Below, in pieces: positions 5,533 to 35,993 of a stretch of 35,993 nt of DNA (positions within the stretch are counted from its first letter, which is position 1; every line of letters begins with the position of its first letter). Made by a program: the position numbers and the translations under genes. Below the pieces are notes generated by a model. The model was not told the origin of the DNA. It ran no database searches and saw nothing but the letters and a program-made list of their open reading frames with translations. Origin of the DNA: a virus. The stretch is taken from positions 1 to 35,993 of IMG/VR virus record IMGVR_UViG_3300048672_000119, one strand, 5' to 3'.

Positions 5533-5981
5533 TCATTACAGAAGAAGGGTGGTCAAGTCGTCAATATTACTGTTCGGAACAGTACGCGACGATTGGATTT
5601 GGACGTAAGGTTTCCGATAAAAAGAATACACCACTTACCAATGAAATCACCACTAAAGAAAAAGAAATAGTTTTCGTTAGAGAAAAGATTCGTGAATTAT
5701 CTTATGCGTTGATGTCACGTTATCATGCTGCTTGGAACAAATGTAATCAAGCAAGACAGGCTATTCTTATTTCTATGGCATATCAGCTTGGTCTTACTGG
5801 CGTATCTCAATTCCAAAAGATGTGGATGGCTTTAAGCAATGGGGACTTTGGCTTGGCGGCTAAAGAAATGCTCAACAGCAAGTGGGCTAAGCAAACTCCT
5901 AATCGCGCTAAACGACATGCTGAACAAATGGAACGTGGTGATGTGATTCGTTATTACCTCACTAACGGAGAGATTCCGTAA
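5508..5981 (+). CDS. T4-type lysozyme (GH24 endolysin)
   Basis: 157 residues from ATG 5508 (GTG 5496 is a weaker alternative without a good Shine-Dalgarno). It hydrolyses beta-1,4 bonds between MurNAc and GlcNAc in peptidoglycan. The catalytic triad of T4 lysozyme (E11-x8-D20-x5-T26) appears as E13-x8-C22-x5-T28 in EEGWSSRQYYCSEQYATIG, with Cys replacing Asp. The C-terminal part keeps the T4-like KWAKQTPNRAKRHAEQ and an AILISMAYQLGLTGVSQF segment. No signal peptide or SAR anchor is visible, so release depends on a holin. The Asp-to-Cys change is tolerated in T4 lysozyme and common in GH24 phage enzymes. Confidence 0.92.
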   Translation: MSKTAENVIITEEGWSSRQYYCSEQYATIGFGRKVSDKKNTPLTNEITTKEKEIVFVREKIRELSYALMSRYHAAWNKCNQARQAILISMAYQLGLTGVSQFQKMWMALSNGDFGLAAKEMLNSKWAKQTPNRAKRHAEQMERGDVIRYYLTNGEIP

Positions 5982-6078
5982 AACGCTCTATAACACATCT
6001 TAAGCCATCTTAATAACCTACCTATACATTCATACTCCCTATACAAGATAATTCATTGTAGCGCTTCCTAGAGCGTTT
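5981..6078. repeat. Perfect 10-base inverted repeat flanking the lysozyme-holin gap
   Basis: AAACGCTCTA at 5981-5990 is matched exactly by TAGAGCGTTT at 6069-6078, with 78 bases between. The left arm starts on the last base of the lysozyme stop and the right arm is 29 bases before the next ATG, so the pair brackets nearly the whole intergenic stretch. Confidence 0.6.
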
Positions 6079-6107
6079 GACCCGCTATTTTAAATAGGAA
6101 CATTCCT

Positions 6108-6323
6108 ATGGGAAAAATATTTACTAAAAGCTTCCTTACTAAGCTTAAAAAGAGTAAGACGATTTTATTCAACATGCTCTTGGCGTTCATTGGTATCTTG
6201 GAATACAACCTACATCTATTTTATGACGTTCTTGGAGAGCATTACGGGATTGTATTTGTTGTGATTGCTACGATTGGTGCTTGGTTAAGGATGATAACAA
6301 CAGATTCTATTGAGGATAAATAA
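6108..6323 (+). CDS. Two-TM membrane protein, probable holin
   Basis: 71 residues. A basic N-terminus (KSFLTKLKKSK) precedes two hydrophobic helices (residues about 19-37 and 47-61) and an acidic tail (TTDSIEDK), the layout of a class II holin. It follows the T4-type lysozyme and its stop overlaps the next start (TAATG). A holin makes membrane lesions that let the endolysin reach peptidoglycan. Proteins of this type (FNMLLAFIGILEYN ... IGAWLRMITT) are common in phages, often without proof of function. Confidence 0.6.
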   Translation: MGKIFTKSFLTKLKKSKTILFNMLLAFIGILEYNLHLFYDVLGEHYGIVFVVIATIGAWLRMITTDSIEDK

Positions 6324-7012
6324 TGACGTTAGCGGAAGAACTTTCTAAGTCAGATTATAATGGTCTAACTAATGAGCAAGTATTTGAGATTGTAAAGAAT
6401 AAAAAATACACACAACTTACTAAAATTGCTTATGGTGAAACTTTACACTTAGTTTCTATGCTTGCTCGTGGGTTGAGGGACAGAATTAACGCTTGCCTTA
6501 TACCAACACTTAGAGCTGCTTGGGTTGAGGCTTTGAGGCCGGAATATCTTTCTTCACCATCATATTCAATCAATGTTTCTCTCCCTGAAATTAAAGCAAT
6601 GCTGGATGCAGGTAAAGCTAATAATGTTTGTACCCAAGCAGAATATGACTTTATTATTCAGCTTGCCACAAAAGAGTATTACACGTTCCCTGATGTGACA
6701 CTGATTGATGTGGTTAAGATTCGCAACCCTGAATTACTTTCTGATGGATCATATACTCCGATTGTAGGTAAAGGTAGGACGGTGTTAGTTAATGTAACAC
6801 AACCACTACCTACCGAATCTTCAGTACGCATAGAAGTAAGAGAATCTTATGATGGGGTATTGTGGACTAATTGGCAACGTGTGAATCACATTCACAATGT
6901 AAAAGACACAGGGTTGTACCATTGTCAATGGCAAGGGTCGTACTTACCTTATGTTGAAATGAGAATGAAGAACGAAACATTTAACATGAGCGCTACCGCT
7001 CAGGCGGTGTGA
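6323..7012 (+). CDS. Hypothetical structural protein upstream of repeat fibre
   Basis: 229 residues, TAATG overlap with the holin-like gene. The N-terminal half is helical (residues 1-130, with NVCTQAEYDFIIQLAT); the C-terminal half (residues about 145-229) looks like a beta sandwich. I do not recognise it. Being directly before the repeat-containing fibre gene and ending 1 base before it, it probably belongs to the same distal tail structure. Confidence 0.6.
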   Translation: MTLAEELSKSDYNGLTNEQVFEIVKNKKYTQLTKIAYGETLHLVSMLARGLRDRINACLIPTLRAAWVEALRPEYLSSPSYSINVSLPEIKAMLDAGKANNVCTQAEYDFIIQLATKEYYTFPDVTLIDVVKIRNPELLSDGSYTPIVGKGRTVLVNVTQPLPTESSVRIEVRESYDGVLWTNWQRVNHIHNVKDTGLYHCQWQGSYLPYVEMRMKNETFNMSATAQAV

Positions 7013-23273: not shown

Positions 23274-23297
23274 AACGTGCAGAAATTATAGCACGTT
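23274..23297. repeat. Perfect palindrome enclosing a -10 element
   Basis: AACGTGC (23274-23280) and GCACGTT (23291-23297) form a perfect 7-base inverted repeat with a 10-base loop. The loop contains the minus-strand -10 TATAAT (23290-23285), and the stem is followed on the minus strand by TTAAC. Confidence 0.7.
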
Positions 23298-23312
23298 ATT
23301 CTGTTGTGTCAA
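23285..23312 (-). promoter_or_regulatory. Strong sigma-70 promoter inside the polymerase 3' end
   Basis: Minus strand TTGACA (23312-23307), 16-base spacer, TATAAT (23290-23285): consensus at both hexamers. The -35 lies within the last codons of the polymerase C-terminal gene (stop at 23296). It starts the unit that carries the small membrane protein, the SSB-like gene and others. Confidence 0.88.
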
Positions 23313-23889
23313 CATCTTCTTGTGAAGAATTTTCATCAGCGAAATTGATGAGTTTCCAAGCACGTTCAACGTAATAGTCATAATCAACATCCCAGACAAA
23401 ATCGTTGATGTCGTTTACAACTTTACACTTCCAACCAGCCTCAATAAAGAACCTACGGTCTTCACAAGGAGTATTCACTATATGACTGAAAGTATATCCT
23501 TTCTTTTCATACTTTGCAATATCCGCAGCAGAAGAAATTGTAACTTCTTCCATTGTCAGATGGTCTACCCACACCTGTTCTTCCTTGAACTCAGTTAATG
23601 GTGGCATCACCTTCACTAAATCACCACCTGACTTAGATACGTAATAACGACAAATGTTTTGTGTCTGATGATCAACACCGTTGTCATCTACAATCACAAG
23701 CTTGCTACTGCGTGGTATCTTCGACCTCAAACAGAAATCAAAATAATTCTTATGATTTCTCATAAAGTCTTCAGGGTCTGTTCCGTGTAGAATAAATTCC
23801 TCTACAGCCATTTTAACTATAAGAGCCGAATGATTCTTGTGATTAGGTAAATCTCTCCACTCATAACGACCTTTAGCTTTGAATTTCAT
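23296..23889 (-). CDS. Family B DNA polymerase, C-terminal (thumb) part
   Basis: 197 residues; GAGGT 8 bases upstream of ATG 23889. Continues the polymerase of the 24388 gene: that protein ends NNYFSIYEEKK and this one begins MKFKAKGRYEWRDLPNHKNH, the segment that follows the palm in intact phage family B enzymes (K-x-K-G-R-x-E-W ... H-K-N). Then NICRYYVSKSGGDLVKVMPP, as in the thumb. Together the two products total 739 residues, a normal size for this family. Probably the parts assemble. Separated by an HNH gene. Confidence 0.85.
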   Translation of the reverse strand: MKFKAKGRYEWRDLPNHKNHSALIVKMAVEEFILHGTDPEDFMRNHKNYFDFCLRSKIPRSSKLVIVDDNGVDHQTQNICRYYVSKSGGDLVKVMPPLTEFKEEQVWVDHLTMEEVTISSAADIAKYEKKGYTFSHIVNTPCEDRRFFIEAGWKCKVVNDINDFVWDVDYDYYVERAWKLINFADENSSQEDVDTTE

Positions 23890-24391
23890 TATTCCATACC
23901 TCGCGTTTAAAATGATCGTCAGTGTAACCCATTTCCTTTTCTAATCGTTTACGATACTCAACAGCTTCTTTCAGTGTGTCAAAACCTGACTTATGATGAG
24001 AACCTATAAACACACGGTACTTTCCAGATTGAGTGTGTACACCTATTCCAGTAAACCCGTATTTATTTTCTTGTTTCTTTCCTACATTTCTGAGATTTTC
24101 AGACCTAGTGACTTTCCTGAGATTAGACCATTTATTGTTCAATCTATTACCATCGATGTGGTCTATATCACATTCAGGAAATTCACCATCAACGTATAAG
24201 AAAATCAACCGGTGTACATCATAAGTCTTATCTTTTACGGTATACTGCAAATAACCGTGAGTAGAACGAGCCGTACCTACGAAATCACAAGAAGTAATTT
24301 CTCCGTTACATTTCAACCTACCTATTCTCTTAAATACTCCGGTATCAGGATCATAATGAAACAATGACCTAACGAGTGTTGCGTCAATCAT
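23873..24391 (-). CDS. HNH homing endonuclease (HNH_3 + AP2) inserted in the polymerase gene
   Basis: 172 residues. An N-terminal HNH_3-type core: YDPDTGVF, then the catalytic H60 (YDVHRLIF), D77-H78 (DIDHIDGNRLNN) and N90 (WSNLRKVTRSENLRN). Residues about 110-150 (FTGIGVHTQ ... GSHHKSGFDTLKEAVEY) form an AP2-type DNA-binding domain. Its ATG overlaps the upstream polymerase stop by 4 bases and its stop overlaps the downstream polymerase start, so it is inserted without spare DNA. Such free-standing genes promote their own spread by cutting the uninterrupted target. Confidence 0.9.
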   Translation of the reverse strand: MIDATLVRSLFHYDPDTGVFKRIGRLKCNGEITSCDFVGTARSTHGYLQYTVKDKTYDVHRLIFLYVDGEFPECDIDHIDGNRLNNKWSNLRKVTRSENLRNVGKKQENKYGFTGIGVHTQSGKYRVFIGSHHKSGFDTLKEAVEYRKRLEKEMGYTDDHFKREVWNNEIQS

Positions 24392-26016
24392 TTCTTTTCC
24401 TCATAAATGCTAAAGTAGTTGTTTACATCAGAAATAACCATCTTAGCGTAAGTATCACCCTCTAACGTTAAACCAGTCATTTCTTCCCACTCTTTACATT
24501 TAGCTTCAGCTAAAGCTTCGTATTCTCTGTCAATGATAAACTCGAAACCGTCAGTATTAGCCATTAGGATTTCTACAGTCGGTAAAGAAAGCACCATCTC
24601 GATAGCTTTACACAGTAACATTTGACCATTCAGTGTGATAGTCATAGTAAACTTCGGATCGTAAAACGGACTATACTCATTGTTAGAATTCCCGTATGTT
24701 GCATTCAGAGCCAGTTTGAGCATAGCATTTTCAGCAGACTTCTTATCGAAAGATTTGCGCATGTTGTATAACGTTTCGTAAATATCACAGAATTCGATAC
24801 CCAAATGCTCTGGATAAACTTTGTTCTTAATACTTAAATTAGGGTAAAAACTAGAAACGTCAAAAGTACGAATTACTCTTTTTTCGTCAGAAACAATTAC
24901 TCGTTTTTCTACCGCAGCGTGAACACCACCAGTACCAAATACGTAGCACAACCCATCAATCACCACATTCAGAGCATCAGCAATCCGATAGTTGAACCAA
25001 TACGCTTTCTTGAATCCACCACCATCTTTCTTTGGTAACTTAGCTTTCAGTTCAATTTCTTCCACCCAACCTAGCGGATATTGTTTTAACATCTCATCAA
25101 TTTCTTTCTGAGTTGGTTTGTTCTTGAACTTGATACGCTTGGTTGTCATCAGAGCATACTTAGCAACATCACCAAGCTCGTGTTCAGGAATATCTGAAAA
25201 CACTCCTTTGGTTTCTGTAATACGCTGACGCTTCAACCATTCAAGAATAGCATTGAACTCTGGGCGCTCAAACTTGATATATGGAAAAATACAATCCACT
25301 AAATCAATATATGTACGTTTTGTCTTACGAGCTTTACCTTGGCCATCATAGCAATTGATACCGGCTTTCTCCAACTCCATAATGAAGAACTCACTACCGA
25401 TCTTAGTGTCGTTCCAGTTCAGAGCATTGAACCCATACTTCTTCTGTAAGTCTAAACGGAAGTCAATCTGAGCTTTACAGTTCTCAAAGAACTTCACTGT
25501 TTCCTTTACGTCATGGCAGTTATACTTACACAGCACGTCCATTTCTGCGTTAGTCAAGTACTTCCCAACAGGGAAAGGTAGATCTTCAATGTTGTTTGAG
25601 CGTGAATTAAACTCAATCATCTTCAAAGATGTAGCCTTTGCCTTGTTGTCGAAGTGGTTCATCTTAAACAGATCGAGCTGTTGTAATAAACGGTCTTTCT
25701 CACGAACCTGATATTGCCATTTATTATCACCATAACCTGACTGAATAACTTTCATAGCGTAATTGTAAATCTCACCAACCGTCATTGTTTTATTCTTCAA
25801 TAACTGTTGCAACACTGGCTCGTCAAAAGAAAGTGAATTGTAACCCACGAGAATACCATTCTGTCTACGAACACCACGCAAATACTCAAACATCTCGTTA
25901 CGTTGGTCTTTGCGTGAAGAAATCTCAAACAGTTTCATCTTACGTGTCTGCATGTCTGCGATACAGCACAGGTAACAGTTCGGGTAAGTTTCAAGGTCAA
26001 AAACAAACCAATTCAT
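24388..26016 (-). CDS. Family B DNA polymerase, N-terminal exonuclease plus palm part
   Basis: 542 residues, AAGGAGA upstream of ATG 26016. Proofreading exonuclease motifs: Exo I FDLETYP (D7, E9), Exo II GYNSLSFDEP (N60, D65), Exo III YNCHDV (D169). A GTGGVH box precedes Motif A FDVSSFYPNLSI (D386). Motif B is KLALNATYGNSN (K434 onward) and Motif C is ANTDG (D489), with Asn instead of the first Asp of DTD. The frame stops after NNYFSIYEEKK, before the thumb, which is encoded downstream at 23296-23889 beyond an HNH gene. The replicative polymerase. Confidence 0.93.
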   Translation of the reverse strand: MNWFVFDLETYPNCYLCCIADMQTRKMKLFEISSRKDQRNEMFEYLRGVRRQNGILVGYNSLSFDEPVLQQLLKNKTMTVGEIYNYAMKVIQSGYGDNKWQYQVREKDRLLQQLDLFKMNHFDNKAKATSLKMIEFNSRSNNIEDLPFPVGKYLTNAEMDVLCKYNCHDVKETVKFFENCKAQIDFRLDLQKKYGFNALNWNDTKIGSEFFIMELEKAGINCYDGQGKARKTKRTYIDLVDCIFPYIKFERPEFNAILEWLKRQRITETKGVFSDIPEHELGDVAKYALMTTKRIKFKNKPTQKEIDEMLKQYPLGWVEEIELKAKLPKKDGGGFKKAYWFNYRIADALNVVIDGLCYVFGTGGVHAAVEKRVIVSDEKRVIRTFDVSSFYPNLSIKNKVYPEHLGIEFCDIYETLYNMRKSFDKKSAENAMLKLALNATYGNSNNEYSPFYDPKFTMTITLNGQMLLCKAIEMVLSLPTVEILMANTDGFEFIIDREYEALAEAKCKEWEEMTGLTLEGDTYAKMVISDVNNYFSIYEEKK

Positions 26017-32315: not shown

Positions 32316-32510
32316 TTAGAATGAACCATATGGTGTTTTAGATAGATCAATAATGTCTGCTAAGAACTTTTCTTCAAGTTGTTTCTTTTGTTTTAAAAAT
32401 AAATTAAGATTATCAAGGTCTCGCATAATATCATTACCCTCCGTCAAGACTTGAGTGATCAGTGCCACATCTTCTTTATACCGTTGCACACGTTGTTCAA
32501 TTTTGTTCAT
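32316..32510 (-). CDS. Small helical protein
   Basis: 64 residues, GGAGATTG upstream. Alpha-helical, first gene after the promoter at 32541-32569. No family recognised; the helix LDNLNLFLKQKKQLEEKFLA may be coiled coil. Confidence 0.55.
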   Translation of the reverse strand: MNKIEQRVQRYKEDVALITQVLTEGNDIMRDLDNLNLFLKQKKQLEEKFLADIIDLSKTPYGSF

Positions 32511-32540
32511 CTCAATCTCCTCATTTGTTTCAATGAATAC

Positions 32541-32569
32541 ATCTTACGCTCTTCGAGTGCTTGTGTCAA
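32541..32569 (-). promoter_or_regulatory. Sigma-70 promoter for the 32510-31278 unit
   Basis: Minus strand TTGACA (32569-32564), 17-base spacer, TAAGAT (32546-32541). Confidence 0.8.
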
Positions 32570-32603
32570 TGATTATTTTAATTTATTTGTGTTAGAAATG
32601 AAA

Positions 32604-32625
32604 AAGCCCAGCGAATGCTGGGCTT
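32604..32625 (-). terminator. Intrinsic terminator after the 32631 gene
   Basis: Minus strand AAGCCCAGC, loop ATTC, GCTGGGCTT followed by TTTC. Confidence 0.9.
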
Positions 32626-32630
32626 GTGTG

Positions 32631-32948
32631 TTACATAAATTTATATTCGATCTTCCACTTAATGTCTTTGTACAAAGAACACAGGGAAGCAAATACATTC
32701 AATAGATATACGGTAACAGGGTTCATTTTACCAACAACCACGGGAGGATAAACCAAACAATTATCTGTCCATTCACTGCCTGTTGCACGTCCATTGTCGC
32801 TGTTCTGTGTAGAACGATTGTATCTGTTGGAACCGTATTGATTATAAACAGTTTCGTAACCTTTTAGCTTGGTGTGTTCTCCAACAACTCGGAAGTCATC
32901 ACCACCTTTAGTTTTGTAGATGAATCCTACTTTGAATCGCTCAACCAT
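32631..32948 (-). CDS. Hypothetical protein, single-gene unit
   Basis: 105 residues from ATG 32948 (AGGAG 7 bases upstream; the ATG one codon earlier is also possible; 32978 is a shadow extension). Begins MVERFKVGFIYKTKGGDDFR, a small beta fold common in phage early proteins; the C-terminus is helical. It has its own promoter and terminator. Function unknown. Confidence 0.6.
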   Translation of the reverse strand: MVERFKVGFIYKTKGGDDFRVVGEHTKLKGYETVYNQYGSNRYNRSTQNSDNGRATGSEWTDNCLVYPPVVVGKMNPVTVYLLNVFASLCSLYKDIKWKIEYKFM

Positions 32949-33250: not shown

Positions 33251-33682
33251 TTATTTGTAAGATTCAGCCAATAAATATTCCAACATACCGATCCTTTCCT
33301 CATACTCAGCAATCCGTTTGTTAAGAATTTCTATGTGCTTAAAAGGACAATCAAATTTACTTTTCTTTATGGGGTTGGTGTATTTGGTTTTCTTTCTTTT
33401 GTTAAATTCATCAATAATTTTAGGTATACTAACATTGCTTATATCAAACCACTCACCTCTGACGTGGCAGTGCTTTAGTTTGTAATGAAAGAAAGATTCT
33501 AAATCTCTTGCTTGTTTTTGTGACTCACATGGTAAAGAGAATAGACATCTAATCTCTCCGTAATTAGCGCACTGTAAATCTATCAGTCTTTGTGGTAGGT
33601 CAGAGGTAAACCCAATCTTCACTGGTGATTTATCTGACTTATTAGATCTTACAAAGTACACTCTCCATTCTTTCTCATCCAT
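33251..33682 (-). CDS. GIY-YIG nuclease of the T5orf172 / MUG113 type
   Basis: 143 residues. A degenerate GIY-YIG fold: VYFVRS (GIY position), SPVKIGFTSDLPQRL (YIG position with catalytic Arg32), DLESFFHYKL (E62) and RGEWFDIS. Such proteins are often homing-type or DNA-cutting enzymes in phages. A C-terminal basic linker and coiled coil (HIEILNKRIAEYEERIGMLE) may bind DNA. It follows the hairpin-rich ncRNA-like region, with which it shares the promoter at 34108-34135. Confidence 0.8.
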   Translation of the reverse strand: MDEKEWRVYFVRSNKSDKSPVKIGFTSDLPQRLIDLQCANYGEIRCLFSLPCESQKQARDLESFFHYKLKHCHVRGEWFDISNVSIPKIIDEFNKRKKTKYTNPIKKSKFDCPFKHIEILNKRIAEYEERIGMLEYLLAESYK

Positions 33683-33745
33683 TACTTATCCTCATACAAC
33701 GCTGATTACTAATCTGATATAGTTATACTAATGCAGTAATATACT

Positions 33746-34101
33746 TCTCTTTTGAGAGACTACCCAAATTCAAGATAAAGAAGTCCCAACCAAACTCCAT
33801 ACAGGATTCGCGTATTCCGCTAGATAGCACCGCTGCTATCACCTGCCTAAGAAGTCTGGTGGAACCTTATCTTGATGTCTATCTTCTCTTCCGAGCCGAC
33901 TGACCCAACTCCATAAATGGAGATCAAGCTATACAATAGTTGTGATTCTGTATAGTTGAGCAAACCGCATTTCGCGCAGCTTCACAAAGCTGTCAGTATT
34001 CCCTTTGCTCTTTCAGTGAGGGATGCAGATCAATACCATACCCGCAGTATCTGCTTTAATAAGACGTTACGCTGCCGTACACTAGACCGTTCATAACGAA
34101 T
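33746..34101 (-). ncRNA. Putative structured non-coding RNA or long structured leader
   Basis: No ORF is visible on either strand over about 420 bases. Downstream of a promoter (34108-34135), the minus strand has perfect hairpins at 34025-34054 (GCAGAT/ATCTGC), 33977-33992 (CAGCTT/AAGCTG), 33929-33955 (CTATAC/GTATAG), 33909-33922 (CTCCAT/ATGGAG), 33823-33840 (GATAGC/GCTATC) and 33746-33759 (TCTCT/AGAGA), plus a long-range 8-base pair CAAGATAA (33771-33778) with TTATCTTG (33867-33874). No tRNA, tmRNA or group I intron core could be recognised. Boundaries are approximate. Confidence 0.55.
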
Positions 34102-34107
34102 AACACT

Positions 34108-34135
34108 AATCTACCACACTTCTCTCAGTTGTCAA
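34108..34135 (-). promoter_or_regulatory. Sigma-70 promoter for the hairpin-rich transcript
   Basis: Minus strand TTGACA (34135-34130), 16-base spacer, TAGATT (34113-34108). It lies just after the stop of the 34143 gene. Confidence 0.8.
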
Positions 34136-34142
34136 GAAGAAT

Positions 34143-34301
34143 TTAATCAGAACATTGTTCCAATAACTCCACCACTTCCTCAACAAACCCTTCCAATGTC
34201 TCCACATCAGAGAAATACAAAGTAATTTCTCCTGTCTGAGCATCAACATGAACAGCATCGATAAGCTCATGCACAGTAATCATGATGTTTGTAACTGACA
34301 T
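34143..34301 (-). CDS. Small acidic protein (52 aa)
   Basis: Read by eye: ATG 34301 with AGGAGG 4 bases upstream, stop TAA at 34143. Encodes MSVTNIMITVHELIDAVHVD then an acidic segment ending VEELLEQCSD-like (VVELLEQCSD). Strong ribosome site supports it. Function unknown. Confidence 0.6.
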   Translation of the reverse strand: MSVTNIMITVHELIDAVHVDAQTGEITLYFSDVETLEGFVEEVVELLEQCSD

Positions 34302-35448: not shown

Positions 35449-35509
35449 TTAACACATCGAAGCAATGGTGCTACGACAAACCCTGAATGTTTAAGCAAGG
35501 AGAATGTTT

Positions 35510-35993
35510 ATGACTACTCAAAACACTACAGAACTAACAACATACAAAATGTTTGATTCTAATTTCAAGTGCCGTGACTTCCAATATGAAGTTGGTGGCA
35601 TATATAAAACCGATAAAGTAGAAGCTTGTTCTGCTGGCTTTCATGCTTGTGAATTCCCGCTGGATTGCTTCAATTACTACAGCCCTGCGACTTCTAAGTT
35701 TGCTGAAGTTGTACAATCTGGTAAAATTTCAAAACATACTGATGACTCTAAAGTTGCGTCTGCTGAAATTTATGTCAAGTTTGAATTAACTTTACCGGAA
35801 TTTATTGGAAAAGCGGTGGACTATATTTTAGCTAAAATTGATTGGAGTAATACAGCAGCTACCAACACTGATACTCGTTCAGCAGCTACCAACACTGGTT
35901 ATCAATCGGCAGCTACCAACACTGGTACTAGCTCAGCAGCTACCAACACTGGTACTAGCTCAGCAGCTACCAACACTGGTACTAGCTCAGCAG
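35510..35993 (+). CDS. DUF7666-like protein with 9-residue tandem repeats (3' end outside the window)
   Basis: ATG 35510 has AAGGAG 7 bases upstream; 161 codons are visible and the frame runs off the end. Residues 13-110 form an N-terminal domain (FDSNFKCRDFQYEVGGIYKT; CSAGFHACEFPLDCFNYYSP; HTDDSKVASAEIYVKFEL) like the DUF7666 domain of phage proteins. From about residue 113 on it becomes repeats of the 9-residue unit AATNTGxxS, which may form a beta-solenoid. Repeat units are exact at the DNA level three times. First gene of the rightward unit; function unknown. Confidence 0.75.
   Translation, partial: MTTQNTTELTTYKMFDSNFKCRDFQYEVGGIYKTDKVEACSAGFHACEFPLDCFNYYSPATSKFAEVVQSGKISKHTDDSKVASAEIYVKFELTLPEFIGKAVDYILAKIDWSNTAATNTDTRSAATNTGYQSAATNTGTSSAATNTGTSSAATNTGTSSA
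35856..35993 (+). repeat. 27-base in-frame tandem repeats
   Basis: Units start GCAGCTACCAACACTG at 35857, 35884, 35911, 35938 and 35965, spaced 27 bases. The last three units are almost or fully identical (ending GTACTAGCTCA), the first two vary. The array continues beyond the window. Confidence 0.85.

Follow-up and report, generated by a model that had tools for sequence, protein, structure and literature searches.

A strongly folded, ORF-less stretch behind a conserved promoter in a 36-kb viral contig is a likely new candidate phage RNA

Introduction

Large structured RNAs that have so far been given no role occur in several lytic phages. Free-standing homing endonuclease genes of phages have structured leaders, which are short hairpins at the ribosome site. 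GOLLD and ROOL, which occur in phages and prophages, are large, structured non-coding RNAs whose function is unproven (PMC12286853), and ICP1, a compact lytic phage, makes an abundant ORF-less non-coding transcript of about 800 nt (PMC7567579).

Here we describe a stretch of a 36-kb viral contig (IMG/VR record IMGVR_UViG_3300048672_000119; the window, 35,993 nt, analyzed over its full length); the primase of this contig shares 59% identity with its counterpart in the Rheinheimera Barba phages. A first-pass annotation had marked an ORF-less region in front of a nuclease gene and had proposed an undescribed structured RNA, a riboswitch-like leader, or an RNA partner of the nuclease. The candidate RNA is small and has a clear promoter; the slot that it occupies is variable, and its relatives are divergent enough for comparative tests.

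Results

A stretch without genes folds strongly on the minus strand

All of the genes around the stretch are on the minus strand. The gap between them is 460 nt long, from 34143, the stop of a 52-aa ORF (34143-34301, minus strand), to 33682, the start of the next gene downstream, which encodes a 143-aa GIY-YIG protein of the MUG113/T5orf172 type (33251..33682, minus strand; PF13455, E 2.6e-11; PF10544, E 1.2e-8). Each sense frame of the gap contains 6 to 11 stops, and its longest ORF falls short of that in shuffled sequence, bearing out the earlier observation of some 420 bases without an ORF. Stop counts, together with fold statistics against shuffles and control windows, mark a predicted ORF-less structured RNA of about 356 nt at 33746..34101 on the minus strand.

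The predicted energy of the whole fold was -115.3 kcal/mol, compared with -97.2 ± 5.1 in shuffles (z = -3.5); slightly different ends for the RNA gave a z of -4.0. At -0.322 kcal/mol per nt, the RNA was lower than all other sampled 360-nt windows of the 36 kb, and control windows had a mean z of -0.22 (standard deviation, 0.93). The minus strand was far more stable than the plus strand (-115.9 versus -85.9 kcal/mol), which argues for structure in RNA rather than in DNA. The hairpin count does not exceed chance. Four non-overlapping perfect hairpins of at least 5 bp with loops of 3 to 12 bases were present (2.2 ± 1.3 in shuffles), and 51 of 300 shuffles also reached four; at least six perfect hairpins of 5 to 6 bases, as claimed earlier, was an overstatement. 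Likewise, the longest exact inverted repeat was 9, a length reached by 49 of 300 shuffles. We conclude that the stretch is a real, unusual, structured non-coding element; as a candidate phage RNA it is likely new, and its general kind is known.

Three other features of the contig were observed. A stretch at 32502-32631 that contains a terminator-like hairpin is 96% conserved in the relative L002 (see below), and part of this stretch is repeated elsewhere in the relatives. By eye, an HNH-like gene (23873-24391), flanked by a 542-aa polymerase ORF and a 197-aa ORF, may interrupt the DNA polymerase gene (23296-26016). The start of a DUF7666 protein with a tail of tandem AATNTG-type repeats occupies 35504-35993 and is cut off where the contig ends; the matching region of Barba phages encodes pentapeptide proteins.

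The stretch matches no known RNA family

A search of the whole window against Rfam 15, a check proposed in the first-pass annotation, gave nothing at the gathering threshold; the best match below it had an E value of 0.15 (20 of 49.4 bits). ARAGORN found no tRNA or tmRNA in the window, and the Rfam group I and group II intron cores gave no match up to E 10, in agreement with the earlier exclusion of these classes. The RNA is flanked by separate same-strand ORFs and hence interrupts no gene as an intron would. The GOLLD and ROOL models also failed to match the RNA up to E 10. No match to the RNA was obtained by blastn against phages and plasmids; of these searches, the one of the phage collection was the sole comparison bearing on the ICP1 transcript. 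A weak match in G004 fell within an open frame and was rejected, as was the gap at L025:4135-4489, which is stable on one strand and was judged an ordinary gap with, by eye, a terminator and a promoter.

Cargo changes at the slot in close relatives

Relatives were collected through searches with the primase and neighboring genes, which yielded L002 and L003 and later L072 to L078; an alignment of the primase against bacterial genomes gave no match. The primases of L002 and L003 are 98% and 95% identical to that of the window, and a neighboring protein is 93 to 97% identical across all three, while the RNA cannot be aligned. In L002, the slot holds an ORF-less stretch of about 375 nt with a fold z of about -4.8. 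In L003, it holds a different ORF-less stretch of 500 nt followed by an HNH gene; this stretch has no excess stability (z of about 0), though it is syntenic, and no architectural match to the window RNA was found in it. No such stretch occurs at the slot in L072 and L074, and in L076 to L078 the slot is taken by a protein-coding gene some 430 codons long (5574-6871) that is polymerase-like by eye. Judged by these sequences, the slot is an accessory site with cargo that changes among relatives.

The gene behind the RNA also varies. Searching the L002 contig, a fragment, gave no match to the GIY-YIG gene, which suggests that gene and RNA are unlinked. Distant matches (31%) lie far from the slot in the records of three of nine relatives, and a protein search of IMG/VR with the GIY-YIG protein gave no match. 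No protein partner and no known counter-defense gene was found in the neighborhood of the RNA. PADLOC returned weak partial matches only; those of the L003 nuclease fall on its HNH domain.

The promoter is conserved where the interior is not

A sigma-70-type promoter, recognized by its hexamers and its conservation in L002, lies at 34108..34135 on the minus strand (TTGACA, 34135-34130; 16-nt spacer; TAGATT, 34113-34108). It matches the consensus at 10 of 12 positions, with TG preceding the second hexamer, and its predicted start at about 34101 coincides with the upper limit given for the element earlier. The region has no excess of promoter-like sites over chance (9 found, 8.3 expected). The site is kept at L002:192-231, where 37 of 40 bases are identical (92.5%), and TTGACAAC occupies the corresponding position in both L003 and Alteromonas phage PT11-V22. 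The good sigma-70 promoter described earlier was upheld. Further matches from a scan with the promoter pattern (L009 to L013) were dismissed as chance.

At the other end, a conserved tail, AGTATATTACTGCATTAG...AGATTAGTAATCAG (33702..33745, minus strand), precedes the next gene and is partly conserved in L002 and L003; the L003 stretch keeps the TTGACAAC start and much of this tail. The interiors of the window and L002 RNAs are not significantly similar, as 332 of 2,000 shuffles aligned as well.

The window and L002 RNAs may share an order of helices

From the 5' end on the minus strand, the predicted fold opens with a hairpin, CGTTATG/CGTAACG (34065..34098; pair probability, 0.98), that follows the promoter-proximal GTTATT. 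L002 has a stem at this position in one fold; its fold with other ends differs. Next come a perfect hairpin, CAGCTT-TGTG-AAGCTG (33977..33992, minus strand), found by both fold prediction and hairpin count, and the hairpin CTATACAG/TTGTATAG (33929..33955, minus strand; pair probability, 0.93). At 33899..33922 (minus strand), the fold and inspection by eye both gave the hairpin CTCCA-TTTA-TGGAG, two bases, and GGGTCAGT. The L002 counterpart, found by eye, is CCGTA-TGCA-TACGG, two bases, and GGGTCAGT. By eye, the two RNAs agree in the succession of a hairpin (5 bp, loop of 4 bases), a two-base spacer, GGGTCAGT, and a long hairpin, a likeness that at 33899..33922 is not significant on sequence alone.

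The long element of the window RNA (33770..33875, minus strand) is an interrupted helix that pairs 33875-33851 with 33798-33770 (pair probability, 0.94 to 1.0) and closes a junction with hairpins at 33840-33823 and 33820-33810. The 8-bp pairing of 33771-33778 with 33867-33874 that had been noticed earlier exists within this longer helix. L002 has a near-perfect hairpin of similar length in its place. The window RNA ends with the 3' hairpin TCTCT-CAAA-AGAGA (33746..33759, minus strand), also found by fold prediction and hairpin count.

The shapes of the two RNAs were compared with a home-made structure-profile alignment score, which covers these two sequences only. The score for window and L002 was 143.6, compared with a maximum of 115 for permutations of the window RNA and with 109.5 and 99.1 for reversed and reverse-complemented L002. 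When sequence was ignored, the pair scored 103.5 versus a maximum of 77 for permutations of the window RNA. Against unrelated structured phage RNAs, the window RNA scored 104 ± 6.8, compared with 138 against L002. Some circular permutations of L002 approached the score of the pair (maximum, 142.2), as small rotations would be expected to. MAFFT and profile alignments of the two RNAs gave no trustworthy alignment of columns. L002 was the one relative found to have a matching architecture. We take the score and the likeness seen by eye as moderate evidence, from two sequences, for common descent of the RNAs with near-complete turnover of sequence.

A motif in L003 points to a separate multi-copy RNA of jumbo phages

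The end of the L003 stretch, CTATCACCCTA...CAGATCCGTCCAAAATTTGAGG, is common to a 450-nt ORF-less stretch of Alteromonas phage PT11-V22. A motif, CAGATCCGTCyAAAATTTGAGG, is shared by the Barba-like phage (L003:3503-3525) and PT11-V22 (L026:6024-6046), and about 20 nt of it recur in an unannotated RNA of jumbo phages, at positions that differ between copies; it looks like a moving hairpin module. Matches from a scan with the L003 motif at L028 to L030 lay within coding DNA and were attributed to chance.

The jumbo-phage RNA is about 450 nt long and ORF-less. The copy in Serratia phage BF (L035:12001-12491; others are in L036 to L040 and L047 to L069) shows, by eye, a TATAAT that resembles a promoter element and a hairpin with a T-run that resembles a terminator. 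Matches occur in BF, GAP32, CBB, 121Q, PBECO4, Munch, XaC1, and others, spanning Asteriusvirus, Mimasvirus, Eneladusvirus, Munch, and XaC1, and in the six genomes that were searched whole, four or five roughly evenly spaced copies were present in each. Covariation is strong. In the 5' domain, 71 cells had both sides of a pair changed, compared with 19.5 in shuffles, and pairing was 99%, compared with 28 to 46% when the sequences were slid. The BF copy, the one compared with Rfam, matched no family, and literature searches turned up no description of the RNA.

Neither nhmmer nor covariance models built from the jumbo-phage RNAs gave a match in the window RNA; the best unfiltered scores of models R1 and R2 in the window region were -0.3 and 2.5 bits. 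Covariance models of both domains likewise gave no match in the window, L002, L003, or PT11-V22, and on this evidence the jumbo-phage RNA is a separate family from the window RNA.

Discussion

The fold statistics, the conserved promoter, and a counterpart in L002 that is structured, about as long, and apparently similar in helix order all speak for the proposal of an undescribed phage structured RNA. The explanation that we tentatively prefer is a stand-alone structured RNA, with its own minus-strand promoter, that would act as RNA and be read through into the next gene. The slot lies in the presumed early region. Transcription from the promoter, probably early in infection, would yield a compact structured RNA about 360 nt long that functions as RNA and keeps its helices while the sequence turns over. 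Because no terminator-like site was found on the minus strand between the RNA and the GIY-YIG gene, transcription probably continues into that gene. The most likely mode for a stand-alone RNA would be to engage a component of the host or of its defenses, and action on a host component would account for both the kept fold and the fast change of sequence. Early timing, accumulation of the RNA, action in trans, and turnover driven by conflict with the host are all points that we infer. We regard as unlikely the bolder proposal of an early RNA effector against host defense in which nearly every base has turned over and the fold has been kept, beside neighboring proteins more than 90% identical. 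If an RNA of this kind does act on host defense, RNA effectors would join protein counter-defense as cargo of phage early regions.

Nearly as likely as a stand-alone RNA, and quite possible in its own right, is a long structured 5' leader with no separate life that controls or stabilizes the transcript of the next gene or genes, for example by hiding a ribosome-binding site until the right moment. The missing terminator fits such a leader, and in the window, L002, L003, and PT11-V22 alike the ORF-less stretch leads into a gene on the same strand; moreover, regulated leaders are known for homing-type nuclease genes of phages. Yet the downstream gene differs from phage to phage, and about 60 nt, including the partly conserved tail, separate the window RNA from the GIY-YIG gene. 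The earlier suggestion of a riboswitch-like leader of the nuclease is weak. The window and L002 have no conserved interior sequence, contrary to a ligand-binding leader, and this turnover and the changing downstream gene argue against a riboswitch; a co-transcribed leader of whichever gene follows is possible because no terminator intervenes.

The stretches may instead be three unrelated insertions that by chance share a slot flanked by conserved ends, the stability of the window RNA being functionless and the stretch a mobile-element leftover or a degraded gene. The chance-level similarity of the window and L002 interiors, an L003 stretch that is neither unusually stable nor similar, and homing-type nuclease genes at the slot in the window and L003 are all consistent with this, but stable same-strand folds in both the window and L002 and their apparently shared helix order would be unexpected for leftovers, and we consider such an origin doubtful. 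A guide or scaffold RNA for the adjacent GIY-YIG nuclease, also suggested earlier, is highly improbable. Adjacency and a common strand speak for it and nothing more, whereas the L002 slot comes without a GIY-YIG match and the L003 slot with an HNH gene, and the distant matches are confined to three of nine records. MUG113/T5orf172 proteins are not known to take RNA guides. The suggestion is thus unsupported, and a stand-alone RNA stays our preferred, if tentative, reading.

The jumbo-phage RNA resembles the window RNA in being an ORF-less structured phage RNA, and its 20-nt motif occurs in the relative L003. This conserved family, present in several copies per genome, occurs in E. coli jumbo phages that are well studied; it may merit more attention than the window RNA and is directly testable in the laboratory. 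Among known systems, the leaders of homing endonuclease genes are likewise structured and upstream of a GIY-YIG gene; the window RNA differs from them in its length of about 360 nt and in a nuclease gene behind it that is not conserved. GOLLD and ROOL, which often, but not universally, lie near tRNA genes, are like the window RNA structured phage non-coding RNAs without a proven function, from which it is set apart by its size, the absence of nearby tRNA genes, and the absence of an Rfam match. The ICP1 transcript is longer and lies by the lysis cluster, and it shares with the window stretch the property of being an ORF-less element of a phage genome.
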